A stretch of DNA of 64,000 bases from assembly GCA_038049695.1 (NCBI GenBank), contig CP142452.1:50178501-50242500 (forward strand), in the 5' to 3' direction. The DNA comes from Cinnamomum chago. Lineage: Eukaryota; Streptophyta; Magnoliopsida; Laurales; Lauraceae. Shown piece after piece: positions 7,685-56,747 of this stretch (positions within the stretch are counted from its first letter, which is position 1; every line of letters begins with the position of its first letter). The translations under genes and the position numbers were made by a program. The notes under the pieces are model-generated. The model was given only the letters and a program-made list of their open reading frames with translations. It was not told the DNA's origin and made no database searches.

Positions 7685-8115
7685 TATTACTACTTTAAAT
7701 GAAAGAAGAGCTCCACATATAATGTTACGAGTTTGTATGGATTTTGTGCCGAATTCCACTGCCTATAACTATCGGTGGAAGACAGTTTCTCATGGAACAT
7801 GTAGAATTATTCATAGATTCATGGGATTTTTTTGGTCGATGAACTGATAACAGAGAACATTGAGATCACTGAAAAATTGAGCCATTGTTTCTGGTTGTCT
7901 TCATTCCATGCAATCAAAATAGAAAAATGAAGTTCCTTTATAACTTGTATAATAACTTCAATAAACATTAGAAGGAATGGTCTTGTTGCATTTTCTACAC
8001 TAGCTGGTGTACAGCTTGTTAAAAATAATGATTGCCCCATAATCAGGAGCATATTAACATTAAAATGTCGAGTTGTTAGTTTTATGTGGTATGAAGATTC
8101 ACCAGATGCCATGAG
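7685..8115. other. Downstream of the PEP carboxylase fragment
   Basis: AT-rich, without a supported reading frame. It may contain the 3' UTR of the captured gene directly after the TGA at 7682-7684. It ends at the target site (GCATG, 8116-8120) of the Sirevirus-like insertion and resumes at 16025. Confidence 0.5.
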
Positions 8116-8120
8116 GCATG

Positions 8121-10038
8121 TGAAAGTCCGCTATGGATCCTAACCCTAGAGGGGGGGGGGTGAATAGGGTGAGCTACTACTATGACCAATTTAAACCAAT
8201 TTTAACTTCTTAATAAAAACTAGTCACATGTGATGATTAACCATACAATATGCGGAAGCTAATACAAATACAATCACCACAAAGCATGCACCACAACACC
8301 AATGTTTATAGTGGTTCGGCCTCAATGCCTACATCCACTACCGGCTTGTGAATCCAATCACCCCACCGGATTTCCACTATGTATGCTTTTTCAAAGGCTA
8401 AGCAATAACCTATACAATGTTGTTTTTCTAGGCTCAACAACAACCTTACAATGTGCTTTTCTAGGCTAAGCAATAACCTTTACAAAATGCTTTTCTTAGG
8501 CTAAGCAATAACCTTACAAGATGCTTTTCTTAGGCTAAGCAATAACCTTTACAAATCAATAATTCTCTAAGGAAGTGTTTACTCAACACTCTAAGAGATT
8601 ACAATTTAAGCTCAAGTAAATTGCCTCTAAATAGGCAGATATGAAAGTGAATAACAAACTCACACAAACACTCTATGAATGCAAAGATGTATGCTTATGA
8701 GGTGTGTGTGTGATGACTTCAATCAAGTTTAAAATGAAGGCTCATTCATATGTATGCTCAAAGCAATTCAAAGTTTAAGACATATAAAAGATTTGAATGA
8801 AGTCTAATGCAAATCACATGTATGTTTTAATAACTTGTTTATGATATGAAAATCAAGAATTACAAGTTGTATGTAAAAGACTAACTTAGAACATGTGATG
8901 CATGTGCAATGTTGTTTTCAAAAACAAATAGATTTTACTAATGTTTAAATGAATGAAAACAACAAGCAAGTTTCAACCAAGACAAAGAATCATGCATGTA
9001 AAGAAAATCAAAGATTTAACCTAGGCATGATTAAGAAGGTTTTAAAGAAACAACTTGGATTGAAACAAAGTAAAGAATCCAATCTTAATTACATCAAAGA
9101 TTAAGAGAAGAATGGATTCATCACTTCATAGTTATCATGTACAAAAACATTTACCAATTACTTAAACAAGACATGAAAACTATGATTAACAAAAGGTAAA
9201 GCTTACTTGGTGGTTTAACTCATTAATCCAAGCTTTAGCTCTCCTAATGACCTCCTAGCCTTTCCAACTTCTTCCCCTTTGTTTGGCTCCAAAATGCTCT
9301 CAAAGGCTCATTTGTTCCAACACTTGAGAAGTTGGAAATGAATGGACTTTATAGGCAAAAAAAACAGTCCACGGGCTAGTTGTCTCGGTCGACCTAGAGG
9401 TCTCGGTCGACCGGGAAGGCATAACGGTCGGATTTTTGACCGTTGGAGGTTTCAGTTCAGAAACTGTAAAAAATACCTCCAGTTGTCTCGGTCGACCGAG
9501 ACCTGTGTCTCGGTCGACCGGCAACACTGCCGGGACACCCCATTTTGCAAAAATTCAATTTTTGCCTATTTGAAGGTATAACTATGGGGGACCTTTTGGG
9601 CCACTAAATCAAGCTAAAATACATGTTTTAGAGATATTCTAAGATGTTTAAAAACAAGGGAAACACAAAGCCTAAAATGATTTGAAACTTTAAACCAAAG
9701 GCTAGCTTGATTTGAAAAACTCCTTTTTCCAAAAACAATGCATACAAAAGTGATTCTTAAAGAGATGAATGTATGCAAGGCTTAAACCTAAATTCTAACA
9801 TGATTTTCCAAATGCAATGCACAATGAATTAGGTTTTCAAAAAGAGTTTGGGTTCTAAAACCAATGCATCCAAGTATAAAACCAAAACATGCATAAAACC
9901 AAAGCTTTTCCAAATCTTAAAAGCTATGTATGTATAAAACTAGATTTCAAGGGTTTTCTAAACCAATGCTAGTGTGTGAATACAAATGATGCCAATATGC
10001 AATGCATCCATCAAATTGCAAAAACAAAAGACCTAACA
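8121..10038 (-). repeat. 3' LTR of the Sirevirus-like element
   Basis: TG...CA ended, 1,918 bp; in sense orientation it runs from TGTTAGGTC (10038) to GGACTTTCA (8121). It contains a TATA box (9347-9353), palindromes upstream of it, the ACCACTATAAA motif (8305-8340) and a G10 run at 8151-8160. No coding potential: the reading frames at 9300-9581 arise from the palindromes. Confidence 0.93.
9347..9521 (-). promoter_or_regulatory. LTR promoter: TATA box with upstream SalI-type palindromes (3' LTR)
   Basis: The minus strand reads GCCTATAAAG at 9347-9356. Upstream in sense direction are four copies of a CTCGGTCGACCGAG-type word: 9384-9397, 9402-9415, 9487-9500 (perfect 14-bp palindrome) and 9509-9521. 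Between them is another inverted repeat, AACGGTC...GACCGTT (9423-9444). The arrangement suggests a cis-regulatory region just upstream of the transcription start. Confidence 0.7.
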
Positions 10039-10640
10039 ATCTCCCCCTTTGCAATTTGATGGCAACTTACTCATCATTGAAAAAACACACTTTGTCTTTA
10101 GCTCCCCCTAAGCTTGACAAGTCTTGAAATCTTCTTGGATGCTCCTTCTCTTAGCTTGGGCTCTTTGGCTCTTTACTTCACTCTTCTTGATGCTTGGAGC
10201 TTGATCATCCTTCAAGCTTTCTCTTCTCATCTTCCTCTTTATGGCCAAGCATCTTCTTTAGCTCCAAGCTTTCTTTCTTCTATTAGCTCTCCCCCTTTGA
10301 CCATGCCTCTTTCTCCCTTTGGCAAGGTATGTATTCTCTCCCCTTGTAGAAGATCATACACAACTCTCCCCTTTGGAAGCTTGGACTTTCTCTTCACCCT
10401 TTTGAGAACATGCATAATTTCTCCCCCTTTGCCATTAAATTGCAAAGGTACCTACACACATGAAACAATGAAAATACCATTAGTAGCACCTGTTAACAAA
10501 TGAAATCGAAAATGAAATTCATAACAGGTTATCATGTATGGAAGTTAGCTCTAAGGGCTCAAAAGCAATCCAAGGGTGAATTTGATCAACACTAATTCTT
10601 CCTATGAAGGTTTACACTCCCCCTCAATCCATTCTCTTCT
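10039..10640 (-). other. Multiple polypurine tracts next to the 3' LTR
   Basis: The functional PPT is at 10039-10052 (minus GCAAAGGGGGAGAT directly before the LTR). Further CAAAGGGGGAG-like tracts on the minus strand lie near 10102, 10286, 10310, 10338, 10365, 10421 and 10614. Repeated PPTs are a known Sirevirus trait. The same series is seen on the plus strand at 45770-46202 in the related element. The plus-strand frame 10114-10503 is the complement of these tracts. Confidence 0.75.
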
Positions 10641-12440
10641 TTTGTCAAACTTTTGACAAAGATTTAACTATTAGGTGCAAGAAGAAGATGGTTTAACCAA
10701 GTGAGGGTTAACTTCAAGGAAAGGATTAGATTCATTTAACTATTGAGCACAATATGATCAATTTACCAAAAGAAAGCAAGGACAAAAGAGAGAAGCAATC
10801 ATGGATATCAATTGAAACAAACATATCAATTGAGATTAAAGGATATGACTATTAACATAATCACTCTACAATGGATTTAAGAATATTACTATTAGGAGAA
10901 ATCCAAATTAGAGCTATCCATGATATGGGGTATTCTCAAACATAGCATCAATCAATATTACTTATGAAAATCATATGCTATGTAAGATTTTGAAAATCAT
11001 TTCATTCAATCAATAAATATGACTTATTCAAGTGCAAATTGAGTGAAATGAAATTCAAACATGAAGCCAACCTCTCCTAATAACTCTCCTAATAACCAAC
11101 CAATATTATGAACACATAAACATGGTGGTCATGAGATATAACTATATGATCAAAAAGAGGTGGCAATCATGAGCATTATGATGCTAATGGTGTGTGACAT
11201 GGAATGATCATATTACTTATCAAGTTTAGTCCAATGCACACAAAGTCTATCACATACACAAGATAAGATATCAATTGGATAGAAATCAATGGAAAGTTAT
11301 ACCAAATGAAACCAATTGAATGTGATAACATGAGTAAAAGCAAGGATGAGAAAAACTACCATCAAGCATCATTAATGCATATTCATCACTTTTAAGGATA
11401 TGACTATTGAGCATAGTGATGAACAAGGTAAATTGCAATGCAAAAGTATAAAGCTTTGTAATGCATGCAATTTCCAAAGTGTCTAGATCATATGAATTCA
11501 ACACTAAGAAATCCATCAAACAAGAGATATAACTATGAAATACAAGAAATGGATTTCAAATAGGTACATATGATCAAGAACACTACTATGAAGTTGAAAC
11601 ATGTATAAGGATGACTCCAAGAGAATCTACATGAATCAACATCATAACCATCCATAAAGATATGACTAGTGAGCATAGAGGATGGATTTAGGTTCTAGTA
11701 TGGTTTCTACAAATGTTACAAGTTCACAACCATACATGGAACCAATAGTCATTTGCATATGAAAAGAATGTAAACACATAAGCTAGAGATGCAAACAACA
11801 TACATTTCCATTTCTAAAGATAATGAAACCAAAAGAAAAAGGAAATGAGAATAATGGAACATGCTTAGATGAATATAACTAATGATGTTATAGGCATTTC
11901 CATTCAAACAATCTTCAAATCATTTTGAAAAACAAAATCCAACAATGAGCATAAAAAGTATGATTTTGAAGATCAATTTTCAACATTGTATTTTAAAAGA
12001 TATAACTTAAATGAAACACATACAAGTTGATTTTTCAAAACAATGTTCTCCATATAAAAGTATAACTTAGAAATCTATGGAAAAACTTGAATTGATTCAA
12101 ATCATTTGTTAAAAAAAATATTACTATGACATCTACACAAATGATTCAACAACAATTGATCATGAAAAAATTAGCTATGAAAGCTTTTAACAACACAATC
12201 AATTAATCATGTAGAAATGCAATGCAAGGCATATGAGTGCAAAAAGCAAATCAACATGATGAATTTATAATCAAGAGATTTTGAAAACCATGACATGTAA
12301 CTTAGAAAGGTGCATGAAAACAAAATCAAATGATCATAAATAAGCAATGCATTTTATGAAATGTAACTAAGAAAGAACCAAAATGCAAAGCAACATGACC
12401 AACTAAATGATTTAACTATAAAAAGAATAGGTTGGTCAAT
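10641..12440 (-). repeat. String of about 20 inverted repeats with a shared loop motif
   Basis: Non-coding. Arms of 6-15 bp enclose spacers mostly of 20-50 nt. Examples: 12396-12403/12431-12438, 12348-12355/12380-12387, 12100-12109/12137-12146, 11691-11705/11728-11743, 11509-11516/11549-11556 (nested in 11486-11494/11567-11575), 11382-11390/11415-11423, 11271-11278/11312-11319, 10940-10948/10975-10983, and 10798-10807/10915-10924 enclosing two inner hairpins. Most spacers contain an ATATRACTAT-like motif (minus sense ATAGTYATAT). Function unknown; see findings. Confidence 0.65.
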
Positions 12441-12454
12441 GTAGGTCCAAGACC

Positions 12455-13999
12455 CTAAGGTTTGTCAAAGTAGATGACTTTAGGAATCCACCTAAGGTCT
12501 TGGGAGGGTTGAACTTTGAGGTCTATTTTGGGGTTCTCACCAACTAAAGGAGATTTAACTTGATAAATTTTCAATTTGAACTTATCACCATGATATTTAG
12601 ATTTTATTAAATTTGGCTTAAAATGGTGATTAGTCTTTTGATGTTGGTGAGTTTGTTTCTTAGGGGATTGTTTCTCTTTTCTTTTCTTCTTATTTTCTCC
12701 CTTTCTTTGACTTTTGAATTTTGAATTTAACTTAGCTACTTTCTTCAAAAGTTCTTTCATGGGTTCATATGAGGGAGATAGATTGAGAAACCTTTTGTTA
12801 ATAGATTCTTTTAAACTTGGTTTAACTTGTTTAACCTTTTTAGAATCTATATTTGGAGACTCCATTTTAAATGGTTTAACTTGTTTAGTCTTTTTGGAGT
12901 TTTCCTTGGTTTTTAGTGTCTTACCCTTCAAGTTTGATTTTCCATTTTTGAGTTCAAAGATGGGTTTAGACACATGGCTTCTCTTTCTTAGTTTGCACTC
13001 AAATGTAAAGTGTCCTTCAATGCCACAATAATTACATTTAGACTTGGGCAAAGAAGTGTGAGTGCTAGAGAATGAGGACTCACCTTTCACAAATGTGTTG
13101 GTGAATTTAGGGTTATAAGACATATTCCTATTAAATCCAATACCCGTCCTATCTCCATGAGGTTTACCCAATTTATATAATTTTTCAAGTCTATCTTCTC
13201 TTTGGGTAAACTTGCACTCATACTTTTGTTTATAGTTTTCAAGTTGAGTGACTTTGGTTATAAGGATTGAATTTTCATGTTTGACTATTGAAAGTTCATT
13301 TTCAAGTTCCTTATATTTGATTAGCTCTTCATTGGCAAGTTTTAATTCATTAACAACTTTAGATCCAAGTTCTTGAGTTTTTAACTTACTTTTGATCAAC
13401 TTGGTTTCTAAATGGTCAATGTCTTCATCTTGTCTTTTAATTGTATCTCTTAGGTTCAAATTCTCATTTTTAAGCTCATCACAATTTATCTTAATCTCAT
13501 TTAATTCATTTTGAGTATTAGATAAATTTTCCTTAGAGATAGTCAATTTAGATTCAAGATTGTTGTCTTTACCTTGCCTTTGTAATTGATCTCTTAGATT
13601 TAGATTTTCCTTATTGACATTGTCATAATCCATCTTTAATTCTTTTAGTTCATCTTGAATGTTAGATAGATTATTTAAAGAGATCATGAACTTAGAGTCT
13701 AGACATTTTATTACTTCTTCTTTCTCTCTAAGTTCATCTTTTGAAGAGGCTAGCTCTTTGGTTAGATTCATAGATTCTTCTCTTAAGCTTTTGTTTCTTT
13801 TATCAAGCTTTGTAGATAATGTATATAATTCATTATAGGCTTGTTGAAGATCATCTTCATCATACTCATTTTCTTCCTCTTTTGAGTCAAATCGATATTC
13901 ATTTAATTGATGGTTTGAATCTCTAATAGAAGGAAGAGTGAGAGGTCTAGAAGAATCTACAAAGTCTAGCCTAGTGGAGTCCATTCTAAAGATTTTCAA
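12455..13999 (-). CDS. Gag C-terminal protein: coiled coil plus zinc knuckle
   Basis: An intact 514-codon ORF beginning about 100 bp after the 5' LTR, the only undamaged retrotransposon frame in the window. Residues about 40-270 are charged heptad-like sequence (LSTKLDKRNKSLREE, repeated NLSN.QDEL/NLRD blocks), predicted coiled coil. A zinc knuckle CNYCGIEGHFTFEC (CX2CX4HX4C) lies near residue 328. A Lys-rich tail ends in WIPKVIYFDKP. This matches the C-terminal half of Sirevirus Gag; the N-terminal Gag capsid domain and all pol domains are absent. It could bind element RNA and associate with an autonomous relative's Gag through the coiled coil (inference). The ATG at 13999 is used because the frame is continuous from it; MDSTRLDF (6 codons later) is an alternative start. 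Confidence 0.8.
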   Translation of the reverse strand: MKIFRMDSTRLDFVDSSRPLTLPSIRDSNHQLNEYRFDSKEEENEYDEDDLQQAYNELYTLSTKLDKRNKSLREESMNLTKELASSKDELREKEEVIKCLDSKFMISLNNLSNIQDELKELKMDYDNVNKENLNLRDQLQRQGKDNNLESKLTISKENLSNTQNELNEIKINCDELKNENLNLRDTIKRQDEDIDHLETKLIKSKLKTQELGSKVVNELKLANEELIKYKELENELSIVKHENSILITKVTQLENYKQKYECKFTQREDRLEKLYKLGKPHGDRTGIGFNRNMSYNPKFTNTFVKGESSFSSTHTSLPKSKCNYCGIEGHFTFECKLRKRSHVSKPIFELKNGKSNLKGKTLKTKENSKKTKQVKPFKMESPNIDSKKVKQVKPSLKESINKRFLNLSPSYEPMKELLKKVAKLNSKFKSQRKGENKKKRKEKQSPKKQTHQHQKTNHHFKPNLIKSKYHGDKFKLKIYQVKSPLVGENPKIDLKVQPSQDLRWIPKVIYFDKP

Positions 14000-14086
14000 A
14001 TAAGCACAACTCTAGGGTTTTAACTCTAGGTTTTTACACCTAATCAAGAGTTCCAAACACTTGATCCTAAGGGATTAGAGCACTTG

Positions 14087-14098
14087 GCTCTGATACCA
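14087..14098 (-). other. Primer-binding site, initiator tRNA-Met type
   Basis: The minus strand reads TGGTATCAGAGC, two bases from the 5' LTR end at 14101. It is complementary to the 3' end of plant initiator tRNA-Met, which primes minus-strand DNA synthesis. Confidence 0.93.
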
Positions 14099-14100
14099 AT

Positions 14101-16019
14101 TGAAAGTCCGCTATGGATCCTAACCCTAGAGGGGGGGGGGGTGAATAGGGTGAGCTACTACTATGACCAATTTAAACCAATTTTAACTTCTTAATAAAAA
14201 CTAGTCACATGTGATGATTAACCATACAATATGCGGAAGCTAATACAAATACAATCACCACAAAGCATGCACCACAACACCAATGTTTATAGTGGTTCGG
14301 CCTCAATGCCTACATCCACTACCGGCTTGTGAATCCAATCACCCCACCGGATTTCCACTATGTATGCTTTTTCAAAGGCTAAGCAATAACCTATACAATG
14401 TTGTTTTTCTAGGCTCAACAACAACCTTACAATGTGCTTTTCTAGGCTAAGCAATAACCTTTACAAAATGCTTTTCTTAGGCTAAGCAATAACCTTACAA
14501 GATGCTTTTCTTAGGCTAAGCAATAACCTTTACAAATCAATAATTCTCTAAGGAAGTGTTTACTCAACACTCTAAGAGATTACAATTTAAGCTCAAGTAA
14601 ATTGCCTCTAAATAGGCAGATATGAAAGTGAATAACAAACTCACACAAACACTCTATGAATGCAAAGATGTATGCTTATGAGGTGTGTGTGTGATGACTT
14701 CAATCAAGTTTAAAATGAAGGCTCATTCATATGTATGCTCAAAGCAATTCAAAGTTTAAGACATATAAAAGATTTGAATGAAGTCTAATGCAAATCACAT
14801 GTATGTTTTAATAACTTGTTTATGATATGAAAATCAAGAATTACAAGTTGTATGTAAAAGACTAACTTAGAACATGTGATGCATGTGCAATGTTGTTTTC
14901 AAAAACAAATAGATTTTACTAATGTTTAAATGAATGAAAACAACAAGCAAGTTTCAACCAAGACAAAGAATCATGCATGTAAAGAAAATCAAAGATTTAA
15001 CCTAGGCATGATTAAGAAGGTTTTAAAGAAACAACTTGGATTGAAACAAAGTAAAGAATCCAATCTTAATTACATCAAAGATTAAGAGAAGAATGGATTC
15101 ATCACTTCATAGTTATCATGTACAAAAACATTTACCAATTACTTAAACAAGACATGAAAACTATGATTAACAAAAGGTAAAGCTTACTTGGTGGTTTAAC
15201 TCATTAATCCAAGCTTTAGCTCTCCTAATGACCTCCTAGCCTTTCCAACTTCTTCCCCTTTGTTTGGCTCCAAAATGCTCTCAAAGGCTCATTTGTTCCA
15301 ACACTTGAGAAGTTGGAAATGAATGGACTTTATAGGCAAAAAAAACAGTCCACGGGCTAGTTGTCTCGGTCGACCTAGAGGTCTCGGTCGACCGGGAAGG
15401 CATAACGGTCGGATTTTTGACCGTTGGAGGTTTCAGTTCAGAAACTGTAAAAAATACCTCCAGTTGTCTCGGTCGACCGAGACCTGTGTCTCGGTCGACC
15501 GGCAACACTGCCGGGACACCCCATTTTGCAAAAATTCAATTTTTGCCTATTTGAAGGTATAACTATGGGGGACCTTTTGGGCCACTAAATCAAGCTAAAA
15601 TACATGTTTTAGAGATATTCTAAGATGTTTAAAAACAAGGGAAACACAAAGCCTAAAATGATTTGAAACTTTAAACCAAAGGCTAGCTTGATTTGAAAAA
15701 CTCCTTTTTCCAAAAACAATGCATACAAAAGTGATTCTTAAAGAGATGAATGTATGCAAGGCTTAAACCTAAATTCTAACATGATTTTCCAAATGCAATG
15801 CACAATGAATTAGGTTTTCAAAAAGAGTTTGGGTTCTAAAACCAATGCATCCAAGTATAAAACCAAAACATGCATAAAACCAAAGCTTTTCCAAATCTTA
15901 AAAGCTATGTATGTATAAAACTAGATTTCAAGGGTTTTCTAAACCAATGCTAGTGTGTGAATACAAATGATGCCAATATGCAATGCATCCATCAAATTGC
16001 AAAAACAAAAGACCTAACA
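14101..16019 (-). repeat. 5' LTR of the Sirevirus-like element
   Basis: Copy of 8121-10038 shifted by 5,980/5,981 bp. The only difference noticed is G11 instead of G10 in the run after CTAGA. It would drive transcription of the element on the minus strand, with its TATA box at 15328-15334. Confidence 0.93.
15328..15502 (-). promoter_or_regulatory. LTR promoter: TATA box with palindrome cluster (5' LTR)
   Basis: Identical to 9347-9521: TATAAAG on the minus strand at 15328-15334 and CTCGGTCGACCGAG-type palindromes at 15365-15502. This copy would be the active promoter for the 12455-13999 ORF. Confidence 0.7.
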
Positions 16020-16024
16020 GCATG

Positions 16025-17557
16025 GCCTTTAGTAGCATCTGCACTGACTATTTAGATTGCACCAGACTGCACATTGCCAGTGACGAAAAACTGTCTCCCC
16101 AGATGACTCTTAGCCATCAGTTCATTGGATGATTTAATTGGTCAGGGAAGTGTATATTTTGCATAATTCTTTTCCACTGTCCTTTTTGCAGGTTCTGCTT
16201 CAAATCACAAGGGCTTGAGTAGATTTTAGACCATCAAGCATTCAATTGTGGGGCCTGATTCATTCTTGCCATGGTATTGAGCAATTCAATGCTTGCCAAT
16301 CAATGGTGATAATGATTTCCTATGCATGTAAAAAGGCCTATGGTTTTTTTTATGTTTCTTTTTTTTAACTTATTTGAAAAAAAAATCTGTGTAAAAGATT
16401 TGGTATCTCCTATCTACAAAATCTAGTTCCTTACCCTCATCCAAAAAGAAAACATTTAGTTTCTTTTGCGTCTATTCCCCTACAAGTTCAAGTTAACATT
16501 TGCATCTAAACGACATCAATTAGATGTTAGAAGAGAAATGGCTATTTATTTTCTGCACCCTCCCAATAGCTATTAGGAGTTACAACAAAGAAAACGATCA
16601 ATTTCATCATATTATTATAAAGAAAGAGCAATCAGATCCTAAAACAAATAATACAAAAAGAAAAAAACCAAAATCAAAGAAGATTTATATTCCATTGTCG
16701 TGATTCCTTCTTTCCAATTAGGAATCTGGTTTAGAAATAGAAAAAAAACCAAAAAAAAAACAGAACAAAAGATGGTTGGTTTAGCAGAGTTCGTACCTTA
16801 CTGAGTGGAGGCTTGGAAAACAAGAGATGGCAAGGGGTGGAGGCTCGGTGGCTCAGGATTCTGAAATATGGTTTTGGTGACAAGATGACATGTTAAAGAT
16901 GAATGATACATAGCTACATGCTATAGAGACGAGATGAAAGATAGACTTCAAAATCCAAAACTGCCAAACCCTAAACTTCAAAGACCCAAACAGAGATTAT
17001 ACCTTGACGAGAAAAGAAGGATTGATTGCAGTGGAACGCTTTTCCAGTGGTGTGTTCTAATCGGGTCTCAGGCGGTTGTAGTGGAAGCACTTGCCAAACC
17101 GAGAGAAACTGCAGCGATGAGAAAAACGAGGGAAACAAAACATATATAGAGAGGAAAAACGAGGGAACAAAAGACTAATTTATAAATTTAGGGTTTTAAA
17201 AATATATGATTTTTACCTTTTAGTGGGGCTGCTTATGTTCGCTGCTATTAATAACTTTTAATAAGGGCTACATTCTGCCCGCCGTTAAAAGTGATTTTTA
17301 CCCTAAAAATTTTTATCTGCTATTAAAAGTTAGAAGGTAAAATGACAAAAATTTTCCGCCAAATGCTGGGGTTGTCGTTGAAACTTTTTTTTACCGGTGA
17401 CCTTTGTTATGGTCGTTGCTATAAGTTAATAAGAAATTAAATTTTAGTGGGGTCGCTTTGTCAGAGGGTTAGGAATAAATCAGAGAGTTGAAAACGGCAA
17501 AGGGTTGGGAATAAATAAAAAAGTTGAAAACGGTGTGCTCAGGTTATTTTGGCAAAA
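16025..17557. other. CACTA interior, right part
   Basis: Continues 8115 after the Sirevirus-like insertion. No gene recognised; the 71-codon frame at 16934-17149 is not supported. At 17200-17460 words such as CTGCTATTAATAACTTTTAATA and CGCCGTTAAAAGTG recur in both orientations, resembling subterminal repeats of a different transposon. No terminus or target duplication was found for it. Confidence 0.45.
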
Positions 17558-18317
17558 ATAAATAAATTACTAAATGGGGCTTTGCGGACGCAAATCGTGC
17601 GTTGCCAATGGTGCAGATAAGAAGTTGGAGCTTTCCCAACGCAGACATGTGCATCGCCAATGGAAAAAATAATTGCCAACGTGTTTTCCACAACTTTTGC
17701 CAACGCGGTCTTACTTGAGTCAGTAAAAATAGCAATCCTCTGTGACTTTTGCCAACGCAGTCTAAATATGCATCGAAAATAAGACTTTTACCAACGCAAA
17801 TTTTCAGTGCGTCGGCAAATAGTGTTGGGAAAGGTTTTCCACCGCTTTTGCCAACGCGGTCTTACTTGCATCGGTAAAAGTAGCAAATCTATGTGACTTT
17901 TGCCAACACAAATTTTCACTGCGTCGGAAAATAGTGTCGGGAAATGTAAGTTTGTCATAGATGGGGCTTTGCGGACGTACCTCATACGTCGGCAATGGTG
18001 CGAATAAAAACTCAAAGCTTTCCCAACGCACACCTGTGCGTCGCCAGTAGGTAAGATAATTGCCAACGCATTATCGCATCGGCTTTAGAAAAACACGCAT
18101 TGGCAAAACTTTCTCTCTTTTGGGGTTTTTTTTTTGTCGGCGCCAATATGGTTACCACAACTTTTGCCAACGCGGTATTACTTGCGTCGGTAAAAGTAGC
18201 AATTTCTGTGACTTTTGCCAACGCAGTGAAAATATGCGTTGGAAATAAGACTTTTGCCAATGCAAATTTTCACTGCGTCGGCAAATATTGTCGGCAAAAG
18301 TGCAGTTTGTTGTAGTG
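17558..18317 (-). repeat. CACTA right subterminal repeats and terminal inverted repeat
   Basis: Dense GCCAACGC and GCGTCGGYAAA words in both orientations, ending with TTTGTTGTAGTG at 18306-18317. Sub-blocks such as TTTTGCCAACGCGGTCTTACTTG recur around 17696, 17838 and 18164, showing internal duplication. The several short reading frames here are side products of the repeats. Confidence 0.85.
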
Positions 18318-18979
18318 ATTCAAAAGACACCAAGTTAATAAAAACTCTATCAAAGTGGATTCTAAGTTATTGAAACAAATCAAAAATTCTATCTACAAAA
18401 TAAAAAAAAATCAGAAATTCTAAATTATCCAAACAAGTGTCAAGATATGGTTAGAGTTTTCAAAAAGCTTTCAATTATATGAAATCCAATCTTATCCAAT
18501 TCAACTTTTAGATTTTAAGAATCTAACTAATCTAAACAACTTAAGAGATAGAATTTTAAAATTTCTAACTACCTTATTTCAGAATTCAAAAGTTAGCATA
18601 TTAATCAAAACAACTAATCCTAAAGATTTTAAACTTTATCTTACCAATCCTAATCTAATCAGGACACTAGTTAAAGCAATATAAAATATTTTTTTTTCTG
18701 TTTTTAATTACTGAAATTTGGAATTAAAAGAAATCCATCAAAAAAAAATTTGGTTTTTTATTAATTAATTAATTAATAAAAAAAATATCAGAAAAATCAG
18801 AAAAAATCACAAAAGTCTAAAAAACTAGCAAAGTGAAATACTAACTAATACTAACTGCAAAGAACACTACTAATGCAAATTAGATGACTAAACAACTAAT
18901 AAAACCTAAATATGAGCATGCATATGAATCTAATAAAAATAATAAAAAATCATATTTTTAATAAAAACTCAGATTTGGC
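18318..18979 (-). other. Leader of the Athila-like element (right part)
   Basis: A/T-rich non-coding sequence between the CACTA insertion and the PBS. It includes a TTAATTAATTAATTAATTAA run at 18757-18776 and no supported frame. It joins 1190 once the CACTA element and one ATT duplicate are removed. Confidence 0.6.
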
Positions 18980-18997
18980 TCCCCGACAACGGCGCCA
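18980..18997 (-). other. Primer-binding site of the Athila-like element
   Basis: The minus strand reads TGGCGCCGTTGTCGGGGA, the PBS type complementary to the 3' end of tRNA-Asp used by Athila-like gypsy elements. About 10 bp separate it from the probable LTR end at 19007. Confidence 0.8.
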
Positions 18998-20513
18998 AAA
19001 ATATTATGTGAATTTAAATTCAATCTTTTAATACTGCAAGTGCACAGCTGTCCTTTTGAGATAGTGGCAAGTACAGGTCGAATCCCACAAGGAACATTAC
19101 TAAGTTAAAATTTAAACTCTGATTTTTTTTAATCAAAGATTAATAAGTAATTCAGATCCAAGAAAAAAAAACTAGAAAAATTCAGAAACACAAACCAATC
19201 AAATATATAAAACAGATCAGAGCATCCAGAATCCACTAAGCAAGATAATTAATCCATCCATACAATTATTCTATTATTTGTCTAAAAACAATTAACTCAG
19301 ATCATAAACAAATCAATGTTTTCGATCCGGAGGATTTGTCTTTTGCAAAAGTCAATTTTTAATAAAAAGAATAAGGTTACAACCCAAGACCTCCTTCACC
19401 TCATAAAAGAATGAAAAATCATAAGCATGACTTATCAAATTAAGCATAAATTATCAAAGGATCTCAGCCCTAAGCATAATCTATCAAAACAAGTATAAAT
19501 CATCAAACTATTTTCATTAGAAATCAAAACAGAGGCTGCCTAAGGCATGAAGACAGATCTATTATTCTAATAGAGCATGCATTTAAAAGAGACAGGAAAG
19601 TAATAGAAAAATAATATAGATTAAATCAAAGATCTACTTAGCTTCATCTGTATGCTCCAATCCAGAAATCTAGCTAGCCATTGAAAAGAACTCCATAAGT
19701 AATTTCATTGATAGCATCTCCTTGTACAAAGATCTCTCAAAAATCTCTTTTCTAAAAATCCTAATTTCTGGAACAGGGCTCCAGAATACCCAAAAATAAT
19801 TCTTAAAATCTATTGATTAGAGAAAGAAGAAAAAGAGGAGAGAGAGTGATTATGGATGTCCAAGGGGAGGGAGTTACTCCCGTATACTACTTTTTGGTTC
19901 CTTTTATTTCTTCGGTTATCTTACAGATACATTGAATCTGGACACCTTCTTTGCAAATTTGATTTATCTTCATTGATAAGGTATATCTCTTATCCCTTTT
20001 GAATTTGAATGAGGTGGAAGCTTCTGGAAACCTCTGGGTGGATTGGCTAATCTTCAAATGGGGTCCCACAAGGGATGTGCAGCAATTGATTATCAACGGT
20101 GTGGATTTAATTTGCAATCCCGTCTAAAAATGAACATGAAAATCTCCAGACCCATAACTTTGTCAATATAGCTTTGATTTAGACTTTCTTGGGCTCCACG
20201 AGTATTTACTTTGAATAAGCTTTCCAACGGTAGGTAAGTTTCATCGATCCGACAGTCGGATTGAAAGTTATGGCCATTTGAAGATTAGTTGTCCTGAGAA
20301 AAACGAGATTAGCTTTTAAAATTTGATTTGCAATGGAATCTATCTCTGCACAACTTCCATTTTTGAAAGGACATCGGATGTGGATGATTCAAACTCTTCT
20401 TCTTTTATTCCAATCAGAATGATAATCTTTGAATTATCCATTAATAATTTCAAATTTGTAACCACTGTGGACCCAACCATGTGAGACATTTCATCTGTTT
20501 GAATAGTGGGCCC

Positions 20514-23911: not shown

Positions 23912-25235
23912 TCAAGCTTTTGGCGATCCACGAGATGATTCACTTCGCTTGGACCTGTTGATTTCCTTTGCATTCATATATTTTTGAGCTTTTGCCAATA
24001 GTTCTGACATGCTCTTTGGTGGTCGCTTCGTTACTGAAAAGAGGAAACTGGATGAACGTAGGCCTCCCAGAAAGGCGGTCATGGTGACTTTGTCATTGGG
24101 CTCCTTGACTTGGAGGACCTCCTCGTTAAAACGAGTGAGGTAGCTCCTGAGGCTTTCATTTTTATCCTGCTTTATGCTGAGCAGGTGTGGCGGGCTTCTG
24201 GTGGCGGCGTCCTCCAATGAAGTGCGACACGAAGGACTTGCTTAGCTCTGCAAAGGTGGAGATAGAGGCTGGGGCTAGACTGGAGAACCATTGCCGTGTG
24301 GACCCCTTCAATGTGGTTGGGAATACTCTACACTTAATCTCATCGGAGATATTATGTAGTTGCATTAAGGTTTTGTAGGTTTCCAAGTGATCCAGTGGAT
24401 CCTTTGTCCCATCAGAGGTCTCCATGATTGGCATTTTGAACTTTTTAGGGAGTGGGTAGTTTACCACGGCGGGCTTGAATGGTGTGTCCGTTCGTTGTAC
24501 CAGGTAGTCAATTGTTTCTGGTACCTGTGCCTTTATGGCATTGAAGACATTGCCAATCTGATTTTGCATTTCCTTTATCTTCTCATCCCAACGATTGGGG
24601 GCTTCTCTGGACTGGCCTTGGAAATGACTCTCATCTTCCAGGCTATGGTTTTCACTTCCCCCCTCCTGGAAATAAGGATCTTCATCATTGGAGGCCGAGG
24701 GAGGAGGTGGAAGCCCGCCGCGACTCGACCCTCTAGGTGGGACTCCACCCGTGGGTGGAGGTACGTCGAGATGAGCGCGACCTTGGGGGTCGACCAGGAG
24801 TCTCTCATGCTGGGCGACACGGGGAGCTCCACCAGAGGCGCCCTGGGCGCCATGGGAATGGGCGCCCAGGTGTACTCCTCGACCCTGGGCGCCATGGGGA
24901 TGGGTGCCAAGGTGAGGATGTGGACGGGAGGCTCCCCGACCCCGGGCACCATGGGGTTGGGCGCCCGAGTGAGGTGCTCCTCTGCGTGGAGCAGTCCGAT
25001 GCCCTGGGCACGATACTTCTTGCGGTCCTGCACCAGCTAGTGCTCCTCTTTGCCCTGCCAACATGAGTTGCAATATCTGTTGGTTCTGGGTCACCAGCTG
25101 CTGCATGGTCTCCAGCATCTGTTGAGGAGAGGGAGCAGGAGCATTCGATGTAGGGTTAGTAGGTGGAGGATTACCCTCGCCCTCCCACGAGGGATTACCA
25201 TCTTGTCGCCTTGTTGACCTTGTGGTGATTATCAT
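23912..25235 (-). pseudogene. gag: Gag of the Tat/Retand-like element, frameshifted
   Basis: The ATG at 25235 (MIITTRSTRRQD) opens a frame to about 24190. It contains a QxLETMQQLVTQNQQ helix, then a GC-rich His/Gly/Pro low-complexity stretch (GAHSHGAQG-type words, encoded at 24690-25030), then the retrotransposon Gag core (DPLDHLETYKTLMQLH, FPTTLKGSTRQWFSSL, FAELSKSFVSHFIGGRRHQK). A 2-nt loss in a CA-rich stretch near 24190 shifts the frame, and Gag continues as LLSIKQDKNESLRSYLTRFN, VTMTAFLGGL to 23912. No zinc knuckle or pol follows. An upstream extension to 25403 would read through LTR and is not used. The plus-strand frame at 24387-25040 is its complement. Confidence 0.85.
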
Positions 25236-25260
25236 AGTTTGGAAAAAGGAAATTTTGTCA

Positions 25261-25279
25261 TTCCCCACAGACGGCGCCA
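25261..25279 (-). other. Primer-binding site of the Tat-like element
   Basis: The minus strand reads TGGCGCCGTCTGTGGGGAA, 3 bp from the LTR start at 25283. This PBS type is common in plant Tat-lineage gypsy elements. Confidence 0.85.
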
Positions 25280-44460: not shown

Positions 44461-44889
44461 AAAACATGTGTAATCATATAAATCTAGTAAAACCATCGAT
44501 CGTGTGAAACATATGTAAAAGCATGGGTATTCGCCCTACCGGCATTCATTTAAAACATGTGCGGGTACAAAGAACAGAAAACAATATAATAATAACTTTC
44601 ATAAAGGAAACGAATCATTTATCGGAAAGCAAGTAAACAATATAAAACATGTCGGGTATCCAAGGAATCGGGAACTGGCAAGATGGCAACCACACGAAGC
44701 TAAGTCCTCTATCACTAAAGCGATAGAGCAATAACTAGGCCCTGATCTCAGTCACTCGAGGTGAGGAGAAACAGGGGATCTCATATCAATACATATACAT
44801 ATACTAGGCCCTGATCTCATATCAATTGAATATGCATTTATGATGCTTGATGGAATCTTGTGTTTGTCACATCCTTGCTTTTAATCATG

Positions 44890-45410
44890 TTATCATATTC
44901 AATTGGTTTCATTTGGTATAACTTTCCATTGATTTAATATCCAATTGATATCTTATCTTGTGTATGTGATAGACCATGTGTACATTGGATTGAGCTTGAT
45001 AGTTATATAATTGTTCCATGTCACACACCATTAACATCATGATGTTCATGATTGCCTCCTCACTTGCTCTTATAGGTATATCTCATGACCACCATGTTTA
45101 TGTGTTCATAATATTGGTTGGTTATTAGTTGAGGTTGGCTTCATGATTGAATTTCATTTCACTCATTCTTGCACTTTAATAGTCATATCTAGTAATTGAA
45201 TGAAATGAGTTCAAAACTTTCATAGCATATGATTTTCATAGTTATATTGATTGATGCTATGTTTGAGTAAACCCCATATCATGGATAGCTCTAATTTGGA
45301 TTTCTCATAATAGTTATACTTTTAAATCCATTTTAGAGTGATTGAGTTTATAGTCACATCCTTTAATCTCAATTGATATGTTTATTTCAATTGGTATCCA
45401 TGATCGTTTC
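44890..45410 (+). repeat. Hairpin string conserved with the other Sirevirus-like element
   Basis: Inverted repeats matching those of 10640-12440: 44899-44906/44941-44948, about 45155-45167/45195-45207, 45221-45228/45254-45261, 45289-45303/45324-45338, and outer 45278-45287/45395-45404. Loops carry ATAGTTATAT or ATAGTCATAT. Confidence 0.65.
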
Positions 45411-46202
45411 TCTCATTAGACCTTGCTCTCTTTTGGTAATTTGATCATATGAGCCTTATAGTTAAATGAATCTAATCCTTTCCTTGAAGTTGACCCTCAC
45501 TTGGTTAAACCATCTACTTCTTGAATCTAATAGTTAAATCTTTGTCAAGAGTTTGACAAAAGAAGAGAATGGATTGAGGGGGAGAGTAAACCTTCATAGG
45601 AAGTATTAGTTTTGATCAAATTCACCCTTGGATAGCCTTTGAGCCCTTAGAGATAACTTCCATACATGATAGCCTGTTATGAATTTCATTTACGATTCCA
45701 TTTGTTAACAGGTGCTACTAAAGGTATTCTTCTTGTCTCATGTGAGTAGGTACCTTTGCAATTTAATGTCAAAGGGGGAGAGAGAGTTCAAGTGTGACTC
45801 AAAGATCTCCTACTCTTCAAAGGGGGAGAGAGTTCGAGAGTTCAAGTACTCGAAGATCTCCTATCCATCAAAGGGGGAGAAAGAACTCAAGTTCTCAAAG
45901 GGAGAGAATGCATACCTTGCCAAAGGGAGAGAGAGGCATGGTCAAAGGGGGAGAGCAAATAGAAGAAAGAAAGCTTGGAGCTAAAGAAGATGCTTGGCTA
46001 AAGAGAGGAAGATGGAAAGAAAGCTTGAAGAATGATCAAGCTCCAAGCATCAAGAAGATTGAAGAAAAGAGCCCAAGAGCCCAAGCTAAGAGAAGGAGCA
46101 TCCAAGAAGATTTCAAGACTTGTCCAGCTTAGGGGGAGCTGAAGACTTGGTGTGTTAATTTCTATGATGAGTAAGTTGCCATCAAATTGCAAAGGGGGAG
46201 AT

Positions 46203-47926
46203 TGTTAGGGATTTTGTATTTGCAATTTGATGGATGTATTTGCACTTTAGCATCATTTGATATTTCACACTTGCATTGTTTTAGAAAACCTTGAAATCTA
46301 GTTTTATACATGCATAGCTTTTAAGATTTGGAAAAGTATTTGTTTTATGCATGTTTTGGTTCAAAATTTGGATGCATTGGTTTTGAAACCCAAACTCTTT
46401 TGAAAACCTATTTCCTTGTGCATTATACTTGGAAAATCTTGTTGAGTATTTAGGTTTGAGCCTTGCATACATTCATCACAAAAAGAATCATTTGTGTATG
46501 CAATTTCACTTGAAAAGAGTTTTTAAAAATCAAGCTAGTCTATGGTTTTAAAGTTTTCAAATCTTTTTAGGCTTTGTGTTTTTCATGTTTTTAAACATCT
46601 TAGATTGTCTTAAAACATGTTATTTAAGCTTGGTTTAGTGGCCCAAAGATCCCTCAAAGAAATACTTTGAAATGAGAAAAAGTTGGATTTTTTGCCCCAG
46701 GGACTCGCCCGGCACTGTCGCCGGTCGACCGAGACCACTGCAGGGCCAGTGGACAGTTTTCTGAACTGAAGCCCCAACGGTCAGAAATCTGACCGTTGTG
46801 CCTTCTCGGTCGACCGAGACCTCTTTGCCGGTCGACCGAGGACTAGCCGTTGGCAACTTTTTGGCTATAAAGTCCATTCATTTCCAACCTTTTTCAAGGC
46901 TTGATACTTGAACCTTTGAGACCATTTTGGAGCCAAAGAAAGGGAAAGAAGTTGGAAAGGCTAGAGGGCTATTTGGAAATCAAACTCATGTGTTTTTAAA
47001 AGGTACATCTTTATAGTTATTTTGATTTCCATTCAAATGAAATCCATGCATGTTCAAATCCTTTGTATTTTCATTTATGCATGATTTCAAGCCCTTAAAG
47101 AGTTGTTTTGCAAACTCAATATCTTTCTTGGTAAATTAGATTGGTTTGCAAACTCTCTTGTCCTAATCACATGTGTTCTTAGTCTTTATCATTCATACAA
47201 CTTGTTTGTCTCATTTCTTCAAAGTTGTTTGAAACTTTTATGTGATTAGTTTTCTCTTCAATCACCATTTTATAAGCCTTGATTTTAAAATGCATCAAGC
47301 ATTCATTTAAGAGCTTCTTTGTTGAAATTGATTGAAGATACACACTTTAGCTTAATTGAGTGTATGTTTGTAATTTGTATTAAACTTTCATATTAGCCTA
47401 TTCAAGAGGCAATTTCATTTGAGCTTAAATTGTAATCTCTTAGAGTGATCTTTTGGAAAGACACCTTCTTAGAGAAATCTATATTTGTAAAGGTTATTGC
47501 TTAGCCTAAGAAAAGCATCTTGTAAGGTTATTGCTTAGCCTAAGAAAAGCATTTTGTAAAGGTTATTGCTTAGCCTAGAAAAGCACATAGAGAGGTTGTT
47601 GTTTAGCCTTGAAAAGCAACATTGTATAGGTTATTGCTTAGCCTTTGAAAAAGCATAAATAGTGGAAATCCGGTGGGGTGTTGGATTCACAAGCCGGTAG
47701 TGGATGTAGGCACGTTGGCCGAACCACTATAAATATTGTGTTGTGGTGATTGCTATGTGGTGATTGTTTATTTGAGCTTCCGCATATTGATTGATTATTC
47801 ATCACATGTGACTAGTTTTTATTAAGAATTTAAATTTGGTTTAAATTGGTCATAGTTGTAGCACACCCTATTCAGCCCCCCCCCCCCCCCCCCCCCCTCT
47901 AGGGTTAGGATCCTCGTGGACTTTCA
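46203..47926 (+). repeat. 3' LTR of the truncated Sirevirus-like element
   Basis: 1,724 bp, TGTTAGGGAT to GGACTTTCA. TATAAAG at 46866-46872, palindromes upstream (46721-46841), the GTGGATGTAGG...ACCACTATAAA motif at 47698-47733, and a run of 22 C (47876-47897) where the other element has 10 or 11. Confidence 0.92.
46721..46872 (+). promoter_or_regulatory. SalI-type palindromes upstream of a TATA box
   Basis: CCGGTCGACCGAG at 46721-46733, CTCGGTCGACCGAG (perfect) at 46805-46818, CCGGTCGACCGAGG at 46828-46841, TATAAAG at 46866-46872. Same architecture as 9347-9521. Confidence 0.7.
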
Positions 47927-48637
47927 AAATACAATTGAGACATATGCAAGTAAATCAAGTACAAATACATAATCAAACGGGCAAGACGGGGGTGCTCAAG
48001 GGCACACTAACATATCATGTGGTGCAATGCACTTCGGGACAATAACTGTTACCAGAGTAACTTCAATGCTTTCAGGAAAACAAGTCATGTGATGCAAATC
48101 TCGGGAAATGAGGTGAAACAATGAACTATGACAATTCCGGGAAAAATATAAATTTCAGGATCTATTTAAGTGGATAGGGGTCCCGTATGTCGATTATAAT
48201 AATTACCTGGTACTCCTTGAGTTAGACGACATTCCGGGCTCCTTATGCACTTTTACTGTTTTCAAAACTTAACATGAGCTTATGGGTAGCACTAGATGTT
48301 ACAATAGCAAAAATCAAGATTATCAACGGTCCATCCTAGGCATGACATTAATCCGGAAACATCGAGCAACCTATTCAGTCACCGAAAGGAATAGAATTCG
48401 CGATAACCAATGGAAAGACTTGTGTTTAGATATAAAGAAGATATCGCGTCGTTCCATCCCGTTCAAGATTGAAATGGATTGAACTTCGATGCAACCGAAT
48501 CAACCTTGAGGAGTGTCGGCTCAAGACATCTCACACATAGTCCAATCAGTCCAAAAAGGGTAGCCAAGGTCCCACCTAGAACCAAGAAAAAATTAAAAAT
48601 CTCAAAATTCACCGGACTCAAAATTTCTGCACAGGGT

Positions 48638-48724
48638 CCGATCGATCGGTCGATCGATCGGCTGAAAAAGCCTTACATTTAAAAGTCAGTCCGATCGATC
48701 GGTCTGAACGTCCGATCGATCGGA
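48638..48724 (-). promoter_or_regulatory. ClaI-type palindrome cluster in the 4.2-kb family solo LTR
   Basis: CCGATCGATCGG at 48638-48649 and 48691-48702, CGATCGATCGGCTG at 48651-48664, TCCGATCGATCGGA (perfect) at 48711-48724. It lies where the other copy (27320-27680) has GGCGGCTAACCGCC words. Confidence 0.65.
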
Positions 48725-50228: not shown

Positions 50229-50482
50229 CATCGCTCGAGTGGACTGGAGGGTTCGCTCGAGCGAGTCGCTCGCTGGAATGGTTGTCTGGGTGGGTTCGCT
50301 CGAGCGAAGTTGAGGTCGCTCGAACGAACTCATTGGGTCTAGCGAATATTTAAATGCGTTCGAACGAACAACTCTCTGGAATGAGTTCTGGGATGTCCGC
50401 TCGAGCGACCAGGCTACTGGAATGCTCTGAACCCTTTCCTGGACAGGTCGCTCGAGCGAAGTGTCATGGTCGCTCGAGCGAA
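50229..50482 (-). promoter_or_regulatory. XhoI-type palindrome cluster, 3' LTR of younger Tekay
   Basis: Multiple TTCGCTCGAGCGAA-type words (for example 50295-50308 and around 50253-50265). Reading frames across this block (50169-50519) are by-products. Confidence 0.65.
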
Positions 50483-56605: not shown

Positions 56606-56747
56606 GATGCTGTAAAACAAATCGTTAGCACATAATAATATAAAGGGCCACACATTGCTCACACGATACTTGCTATCGAAAGATCTAACAAATCCTCGCC
56701 ACGTCCTTAGGATTTCTAATTTATTTTAATTGCTTGAAACACGTCTC

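Follow-up and report, generated by a model that had tools for sequence, protein, structure and literature searches.

The transcript of an LTR retrotransposon in a 64,000-nt stretch of Cinnamomum chago DNA (the window, to which all positions refer) contains a serial array of about 20 stem-loops with 18 copies of a degenerate loop word (10640..12440, minus strand). The array, the word, its centring between arms, selection on the sense-strand RNA within family A, sharing by related families and retention in elements without an ORF are all well supported. We propose that the array is a multivalent cis-acting RNA, that is, a multi-site packaging or recruitment signal read by a Gag-type protein, and we give this reading a probability of slightly under one half (about 0.48). 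A protein that reads the word, its Gag-type identity and packaging as the outcome are what we infer. The family labels A, B, C and D were coined in this analysis, and REF denotes the copy in the window, which belongs to family A.

The host element (8121..16019, minus strand), identified by self-BLAST and by its PBS and PPT, is a Sirevirus-like, non-autonomous, pol-less LTR retrotransposon with one gag-like ORF. The sequence-only reading had placed the hairpins in the non-coding domain of a retrotransposon transcribed from the minus strand, and this setting was borne out. The LTRs are 99.95% identical over 1919 nt (self-BLAST). All parts lie on the minus strand: the 5' LTR (14101..16019), which contains tandem repeats of 34 nt as well as palindromic CGGTCGACCG boxes; the PBS TGGTATCAGAGC (14087..14098), which we take to be of the initiator-Met tRNA type; the gag-like ORF (12455..13999; 514 aa counted from TTG); the array; five AGGGGGAG polypurine tracts (10041..10624, first bases at 10624, 10428, 10296, 10109 and 10048); and the 3' LTR (8121..10038). 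A second, 5'-truncated copy of family A was found by BLAST in the opposite orientation (44827..47927, plus strand), and comprises part of the array, the PPT region and the LTR, with 84-87% identity in BLAST blocks.

No pol was found, the gag-like ORF being the sole ORF of at least 150 aa between the LTRs. Its product has a CX2CX4HX4C zinc knuckle near residues 321-336, with a weak match to the CCHC zinc-knuckle family (E 0.0028, below the Pfam cut-off). The N-terminal part appeared by eye to be Lys/Glu-rich and coil-like. The frame was free of stops in 82 of 84 copies, these being the best 84 of 8570 candidates and thus biased to intact copies, and pairwise dN/dS among three diverged lineages was 0.50-0.63. 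Among the matches listed for the gag-like query (best 84 of 8570 and 150 of 7909 candidates scored), no autonomous partner with a frame of gag-pol length was found, the longest open frame reaching 568 aa. The array domain itself was also considered as coding sequence or a decayed gene, and this was rejected: its longest open frame in all six frames is 89 codons, and its variability lacks a period-3 pattern (0.059/0.052/0.059, 47 rows).

All 21 arm pairs reported by the sequence-only reading exist, and 16 are perfect exactly as given; those starting at 11911, 11691, 11593, 11430 and 10998 do pair, but with bulges or mismatches, their longest perfect runs being 9, 8, 6, 8 and 7 bp. Along the minus strand, hairpins enclosing the word were found at 12396..12438 (8-bp arms, TAGTTAAAT), 12348..12387 (8 bp, TAGTTACAT), 12277..12327 (7 bp, AAGTTACAT), 12100..12146 (10 bp, TAGTAATAT), 12049..12081 (6 bp, AAGTTATAC), 11841..11901 (7 bp, TAGTTATAT), 11650..11687 (6 bp, TAGTCATAT), 11382..11423 (9 bp, TAGTCATAT), 10997..11051 (8 bp, AAGTCATAT) and 10940..10983 (9 bp, AAGTAATAT). 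A nested hairpin at 11486..11575 has 9-bp outer arms and inner arms at 11508-11516/11549-11557 around TAGTTATAT, and 10-bp arms at 10798..10924 surround two hairpins (10834-10862 and 10872-10905) and two words. The loop at 12154..12204 (7-bp arms) carries what by eye is a variant of the word. Hairpins without the word lie on the same strand at 11911..11973 (9-bp perfect run), 11691..11743 (some 15 bp interrupted by a gap, longest perfect run 8 bp), 11593..11640 (11 of 13 pairs) and 11271..11319 (8-bp arms), and the one at 11430..11473 (8-bp arms) lacks an exact word that is present in the same loop of a family B row (L093).

Inverted repeats with arms of at least 8 bp within 60 nt numbered 16 in the segment, against 3.69±2.12 in 200 dinucleotide shuffles (maximum 12), upholding the earlier argument that chance alone does not explain them. 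With arms of at least 9 bp there were 6, against a mean of 1.11 (maximum 5, 200 shuffles). Perfect arms of at least 10 bp (1 against a mean of 0.29) were reached in 51 of the 200 shuffles, and very long perfect arms alone are therefore unremarkable. This last figure is what a chance origin, from inverted repeats of AT-rich DNA and a coincidental word, has in its favour; that origin was rejected by the shuffled controls and the word statistics, and with RNAalifold, the G-U bias and the tree-based null (see below) also against it, its probability is negligible. The inverted-repeat count was likewise rejected as a unique mark of the array, an excess being found in the window segments starting at 37801, 57601, 18001 and 48601 and in the LTR segments (20 shuffles each). 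What distinguishes the array from these other repeats is its word-centred arrangement.

The shared loop motif had been written ATATRACTAT, a form that proved too narrow because it occurs only four times in the segment (10843, 11136, 11398 and 11527); a degenerate form is present in 15 of the 21 spacers and missing from 6. This word, [UA]AGUHAHA[UC] (in DNA, [TA]AGT[TCA]A[TCA]A[TC]), occurs 18 times in sense and once in antisense, with a mean of 0.34 and a maximum of 3 in shuffles. Its centring between the arms, also part of the initial description, was confirmed: 7 words lie within 6 nt of the centre of a repeat with arms of at least 8 bp, against 1.85 by circular shift and a number that no shift reached, and 10 lie equally close to the centre of a repeat with arms of at least 7 bp, against 3.13 (P = 0.0017). 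Counting words at any place in the loops of the latter repeats gave 11 of 18 against 7.2 (P = 0.07), which is not significant on its own. Perfect arms of at least 7 bp flank 10 of the 18 words in REF, compared with 8.5% for shuffled flanks and 8.9% for other positions; the arms of another 4 are only 3-5 bp. Pooling REF with L093 (family B), L096 and L098 (C) and L095 (D) gave 40 of 89 word-anchored stems where 6.7 were expected. Outside this pool, L097 has 3 of 13 (43 of 102 if added), and the B rows L088, L091 and L092 have 7 of 13, 7 of 14 and 10 of 15. A triple-word pattern was found at 2013 places genome-wide, against 32 for the reversed pattern. A second spaced-word pattern was negative as a statistic (6 places against 13 for the control); two of its places were the entry to families C and D.

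Conservation within family A follows the predicted structure. Variability in 66 aligned rows was 0.015 in the arms, 0.095 in the rest of the same loops (P = 2e-22) and 0.048 between hairpins (P = 3e-9 against the arms), and the arms at 12154..12204 are unchanged in 444 of 444 cells. The word (0.049) is less variable than the remainder of the loops (P = 1e-4), resembles the between-hairpin sequence and has the highest gap share (0.056); being no more conserved than between-hairpin sequence, it draws its support from recurrence and position. RNAalifold gave -611 for the alignment (36 of 48 rows, less than 97% identical) and -369±9 for 12 class-preserving column shuffles. A first covariation count among A copies yielded 13 paired and 7 unpaired double-change cells (47 rows beside REF, 32 raw inverted repeats) because true stems hardly vary, and conservation and G-U tests were therefore used. 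Among single stem changes in the 66 rows, 20 events (88 cells) lead to G-U and 4 events (4 cells) to A-C, with a background of 12.1:13.4 (binomial P = 0.0003, which assumes independent events, related copies being not quite independent). By helix, G-U cells outnumber A-C cells in 11, are fewer in none, tie in 1 and are both lacking in 5 (P = 0.0005). In family A this bias indicates that the stems are under selection in the sense RNA, and the mutation pattern suggests that selection kept the folded RNA itself. The A alignments exclude L014, which is nearly identical to the window, the partial row L050, and L057, which belongs to family B and is the element also labelled L087; L070 and L080 were further omitted from the G-U analysis, and L056 and L061 in addition from the first A/B count.

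The same asymmetry bears on the idea that the repeats act in DNA, as cruciforms or paired protein sites, or are recombination scars. Inverted repeats exist in DNA too, and other repeats are in excess in the window; against this, the word is strand-specific (18:1), and the tolerance of G-U over A-C is a strand asymmetry unexpected of DNA, so a DNA-level feature is disfavoured and appears highly improbable.

Arrays of this type, in which some of the arms differ, also occur in three related families (B, C and D). Sense and antisense counts of the word were 19/1, 14/1, 9/1, 19/0, 14/0, 15/0 and 19/0 in the B loci L087 to L093, 25/1, 17/1, 15/0 and 7/2 in the C loci L096 to L099, and 16/0 in the D locus L095. 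In family B, the array is retained at 67-86% identity, together with about 350 nt of new word-bearing hairpins, and the longest stop-free sense frame is 85 codons in 7 of 7 loci, which are shorter than the whole element; antisense stop-free frames reach 172 codons. Helices were compared using 6 of 70 domains as A rows, 6 of the 7 B loci (all but L089) and 7 C/D loci, with L101 grouped with C/D despite its tree position between B and C/D.

The anticipated compensatory stem changes are clear between families A and B: in helices defined in A, 30 of 30 double changes in the six B rows pair (7 distinct events), against a background of 1105:1062. A first A/B count with 7 B rows had been mixed because raw repeats include chance ones. 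In the C/D rows, which are old copies, no excess was found when they were taken alone (11 paired and 11 unpaired, background 1119:1352). Among individual hairpins, 12396..12438 has undergone a compensatory change from T-A to A-T in family B, 10940..10983 shows G-C to A-U and A-U to U-A, and 11382..11423 has one C-G to U-A change in C/D rows. Hairpins 12277..12327 and 12100..12146 are paired in 42 of 42 and 60 of 60 family B cells; 11911..11973 has two compensatory pair changes in family B, yet 20 of 54 cells are unpaired. At 12348..12387 the family-majority register is shifted by one, and in the window register only 28 of the 48 cells of six A rows pair. In a tree-based null with 19 rows beside REF, the paired share of cells was 0.917 against 0.873±0.016 (0 of 500 nulls as high) and compensatory events numbered 13 against 7.5±2.3 (9 of 500); there was no reduction in unpaired double events (11 against 8.8), nor was the proportion of double events that pair unusual (108 of 500). 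The significance of the G-U bias is limited to family A: the B rows gave P = 0.17 (14:5 cells against a background of 2884:2225), the C/D rows stood at 20:19, and in the whole tree set 132 of 500 nulls were as large.

The packaging or protein-binding role first suggested for the array is compatible with these data, and receives indirect support from retention in family B and sense-RNA selection in family A. As we envisage it, the element transcript would fold into a row of about 20 hairpins whose short stems are unrelated to one another, with most hairpins exposing a single-stranded [UA]AGUHAHA[UC] near the centre of a 20-40-nt loop. Each loop would bind the same RNA-binding protein weakly, and the large number of sites could, by avidity, load that protein on element RNA rather than on cellular RNA. 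A Gag-type protein with a CCHC zinc knuckle would be the most likely reader, either the family's own 514-aa protein, the Gag of an autonomous Sirevirus partner, or both. With such a signal, pol-less (A) and ORF-less (B) elements could be packaged and replicated in trans. Most known packaging signals of retroelements are located close to the 5' end. The family A array lies 3' of the ORF, a position counted against packaging.

The structural and selection evidence would fit equally well an element whose loop word is recognised by a plant RNA-binding protein and which controls nuclear export, localisation, stability or translation, with packaging not its direct task; none of the present results argues directly against this. 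Retention in ORF-less family B is equally expected in that case, and host RBP sites commonly include short U-rich words; about 20 sites are, however, many for an export element, and we regard this alternative as credible but unlikely. Stretches of the array match different stretches of related arrays at 58-63%, and one unit may thus have given rise to another. It is on this, and on a word no more conserved in family A than between-hairpin sequence, that a reader-free architecture could build, in which the array serves compaction of a 2-kb RNA, its dimerisation, its resistance to decay or dicing, or reverse-transcriptase pausing, and the word is a by-product of growth by duplication. We consider this improbable, as the stems differ among units while the word recurs near loop centres and is less variable than the remaining loop sequence. 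A source of small RNAs or miRNA-like hairpins, also initially suggested, fits poorly: perfect arms in the window copy are 5-10 bp, short for canonical dicing, and no Rfam family matched at E<=1 over 8000-16100. Local secondary structures do correlate with small RNAs in maize genes and transposable elements, according to the part of that report available here (PMC10760457), yet such a source seems very unlikely for this array.

The selection of plant LTR-retrotransposon RNA for packaging is poorly known, as is the way in which helpers carry elements that lack genes, and packaged RNA outside BARE is described, in a discussion section, as fairly little known (PMC3735527). If the packaging reading is correct, a compact testable code of one word and many stems would exist in an abundant family, trans-packaging specificity would be directly measurable, and the multi-site packaging idea of RNA viruses would extend to retroelements. 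The related families, in which stems changed and the word recurs, offer a natural set. More doubtfully, though quite conceivably, the array could represent a new class of retroelement cis-element, a 'barcode' with replaceable stems, one loop word and a Gag-type reader, which would be a packaging code common to coding and non-coding lineages, genes being dispensable while the array remains. No description of such an array was found in the open-licence PMC literature, represented mostly by titles and the start of abstracts, which does not prove absence.

The host element shares several conserved non-coding motifs with Sirevirus, a Ty1/copia genus (Bousios et al., 2010; PMC2829016, main text): a AGGGGGAG PPT that precedes the 3' LTR by exactly 10 nt (10048 against an LTR start of 10038), multiple PPT copies near the 3' LTR (five here), an inverted repeat at the PPT/3' LTR junction (CCATCAAATTGCAAA before the PPT, TTTGCAATTTGATGG inside the LTR) and palindromic CGG-CCG LTR motifs, here three CGGTCGACCG boxes per LTR and a further box limited to the GGTCGACC core, which is below the 8-18 copies in the table rows considered. 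Copia-type pol/RT is absent, and the element is therefore at most a Sirevirus derivative. Neither a hairpin array nor a shared loop word is described in that main text, where 'hairpin' and 'stem-loop' do not occur and 'stem loop' is used for the PPT inverted repeat (PMC2829016). TR-GAG retrotransposons, one of which is reported to transpose, also combine LTRs and a single gag-like ORF without pol; the available part of that report does not mention a hairpin array (PMC8704663). Gag identity in the present element rests on the weak zinc-knuckle match. Family B resembles LARDs, LTR elements whose long internal domain lacks coding capacity (7 of 7 B loci, partial span), in having LTRs, no long ORF and a conserved structured internal domain. 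Some 20 serial hairpins that share one loop word are a more specific feature than the generally conserved fold of non-coding LTR elements. From miRNA precursors, with their long, nearly perfect stems of about 20 bp or more, the array differs in its perfect arms of only 5-10 bp. BARE2 differs in retaining most of its coding region. Like the present elements as we read them, BARE2, parasitic on BARE1, is Gag-deficient, keeps conserved dimerisation and packaging signals and is packed in trans, an array of this kind being unmentioned in the part of the source considered (PMC3735527). The dispersed packaging signals of RNA viruses, as outlined in the portions of the reports used (PMC7793301, PMC3593212, PMC7612645), consist of multiple stem-loops in which the capsid protein recognises a common loop motif. 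The array differs from them in being serial within one retroelement non-coding domain and in having a reader protein that is only proposed, and resembles them in its many stem-loops with a common loop motif and in stems that are under selection.

The array at window 10640-12440 consists of word-centred hairpins. When all 21 arm pairs proposed in the sequence-only reading were re-read, 16 were found to be perfect as written; in the remaining five, pairing is interrupted by a bulge or by mismatches. An excess over chance was also confirmed, with 16 arms of at least 8 bp vs 3.7 in dinucleotide shuffles, and 6 arms of at least 9 bp vs 1.1. The loop word proposed for the spacers had to be loosened: the literal ATATRACTAT occurs only four times, but a degenerate form, [UA]AGUHAHA[UC] in the sense of the minus-strand transcript, is present in 15 of the 21 spacers. 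This word was found 18 times in sense and once in antisense (0.34 expected). Since an excess of inverted repeats was also detected in other repeats of the window, a stronger test is the word-anchored one, in which positions were picked by the word alone and perfect arms of at least 7 bp were then scored around them. Such arms flank 10 of the 18 words in the window copy, vs 8.5% for shuffled flanks and 8.9% for other positions of the same domain. Other window segments rich in 8-bp inverted repeats within 60 nt are 18001-19800, 37801-39600, 48601-50400, and 57601-59400; 38196-38495 is a 117-nt tandem repeat. Inside the array, a 12-nt tandem duplication (11085-11096) is absent from all 47 aligned copies, the near-identical copy L014 being outside the alignment, and is therefore private to the window copy, perhaps with closest kin sharing it.

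Self-comparison delimits the host element by two LTRs of 1.9 kb each (16019-14101 and 10038-8121), whose 99.95% identity indicates that the insertion is young. Between them lie a PBS at 14098, a single ORF of 514 aa with a CCHC knuckle match under the Pfam cut-off, the hairpin array, and five AGGGGGAG PPTs; no other ORF of at least 150 aa was found there. The element shows the Sirevirus marks given in PMC2829016: the PPT distance, multiple PPTs, an inverted repeat at the junction, and CGG-CCG boxes. Of the 84 best-scoring matches scored among 8570 candidates, 82 have an ORF free of stops; the scored set includes tandem copies and leans towards intact ones. Pairwise dN/dS was 0.50-0.63 among three diverged lineages (window-like, L004/L006, and L007) and 0.12, on three changes, in one near-identical pair, indicating weak purifying selection on the ORF. 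Each LTR of this family (family A) contains about five copies of a 34-nt tandem repeat (window 8382-8554, 14363-14535, and 47485-47644). Fragments from other elements, namely Gypsy-type gag, integrase, and RT, occur in separate ORFs at 24162-25403 and 52570-56662.

In the 1.06-Gb genome, first-look family A candidates number thousands (4891, 5122, and 8570 in separate searches), nearly all unscored. Among the 50 + 20 domains fetched, one of which (L057) belongs to the related family B, most were 85-94% identical to the window in one comparison and 81-91% in another. Long family A tandem runs were also observed at C6:38699937-38749295 and similar places, with about 5.98-kb spacing and, in the C6 run, nine consecutive ORF matches of equal scores, as if LTR-internal units had been multiplied head to tail. 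Shorter runs occur on C9, C10, and C12, and another on C5 at 5.83 kb.

The array is shared by related families. Family B (seven loci, L087-L093) is 67-86% identical in array blocks and 73-75% in LTR stretches of about 0.8 kb (L088). None of the seven loci has a stop-free sense frame of more than 85 codons, and L088 misses the gag region, its array directly following LTR and leader; the array is thus retained in ORF-less elements. On the antisense strand, L089 has a stop-free frame of 172 codons and L088 one of 145. The family B array is about 350 nt longer, and its added hairpins display the same word, as in the 10-bp stem CAATTTGCAT/ATGCAAATTG of L093. Families C and D, reached via a spaced-word pattern search, are 57-75% identical in BLAST blocks and have their own stems, such as GTTTTTCAAAA/TTTTGAAAAAC flanking the word in L096; family C occurs both with gag (L097, broken) and without it (L098). 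Word-anchored arms were found in 7/13 (L088), 7/14 (L091), 10/15 (L092), and 9/19 (L093) words of family B (shuffled 5-7%), and in 10/22 (L096), 3/13 (L097), and 6/15 (L098) of family C and 5/15 (L095) of family D (shuffled 5-9%). A triple-word pattern matched 2013 places vs 32 for its reversed form; the first-listed places are mostly family B-like by eye, plus three rows of an unrelated repeat (AGTTACATTAGGAGTCAGTGG...; C1:44395112, 52566323, and 55775316) counted within the 2013.

Column variability in 66 family A rows was lowest in the arms of 16 hairpins (0.0153), followed by sequence between hairpins (0.048), the word (0.049), and the remainder of those loops (0.095). Hence, constraint on the stems is clear; for the word, it is seen against the surrounding loop sequence, not against the domain as a whole. 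RNAalifold gave -611 vs -369±9 (36 rows; 12 column shuffles preserving conservation classes). In 17 majority-defined family A stems, changes to G-U (88 cells, 20 events) far exceeded those to A-C (4 cells, 4 events; P 0.0003), vs 154:175 cells and 12:13 events of these types at unpaired background positions. As G-U on the sense strand is A-C on the other, this imbalance suggests that selection acts on the sense RNA. Six family B rows showed the same direction without significance (14:5, P 0.17), and the bias was absent in C/D rows (20:19). For A-defined helices, compensatory change was seen in the six B rows, where 30/30 double changes (7 distinct) pair, but not in the seven C/D rows alone (11 vs 11). 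Against a tree-based null (500 simulations keeping per-column change counts), paired cells in the whole set exceeded all simulations and compensatory events numbered 13 vs 7.5±2.3 (9 of 500); unpaired double events were not reduced, and the G-U bias was not significant. Our reading is that the structure is strongly maintained in the young family and detectable, though diluted, in old lone copies, where alignment of AT-rich sequence hampers detection.

ORF-less family B retains mainly LTRs, PBS leader, array, and downstream region. Because these are the needs of a trans-mobilised passenger, packaging or recruitment would be the most economical function for the array; the main rival makes it an export or localisation element read by the host. 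Under the packaging reading, the word would be the read-out and the stems its display devices, many weak sites may provide avidity, and the reader could be a Gag-like protein. The 88 distinct word instances compared, from five rows of families A-D, were picked with the word minus its final base, a choice that in itself fixes the core A-G-U-x-A-x-A; the unselected flanks carry U at 91% after the core, C/U at 81% next, and G at 2-5% in positions -5 to -2. The one G of the word therefore stands in a G-poor stretch. By analogy with retroviral nucleocapsid work, a lone invariant G left unpaired in a pyrimidine-rich loop would suit a CCHC knuckle, which gives a weak hint at such a reader.

Conserved RNA structure is described in LARD/TRIM elements (PMC7215508), a Gag-deficient parasite retains conserved packaging signals (PMC3735527), transposition is reported for a TR-GAG element (PMC8704663), and packaging signals can be multi-site (PMC7793301). 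At C10:6675830-6729483, 11 family B matches follow one another with about 5.27-kb spacing, resembling tandem arrays of Cassandra elements (PMC7215508). Among published titles and abstracts as listed, none describes a retrotransposon whose hairpins form a serial array with a common loop word. We rate the array as falling under cis-acting structured retroelement RNA, which is already known, with a real chance that it represents a new class.
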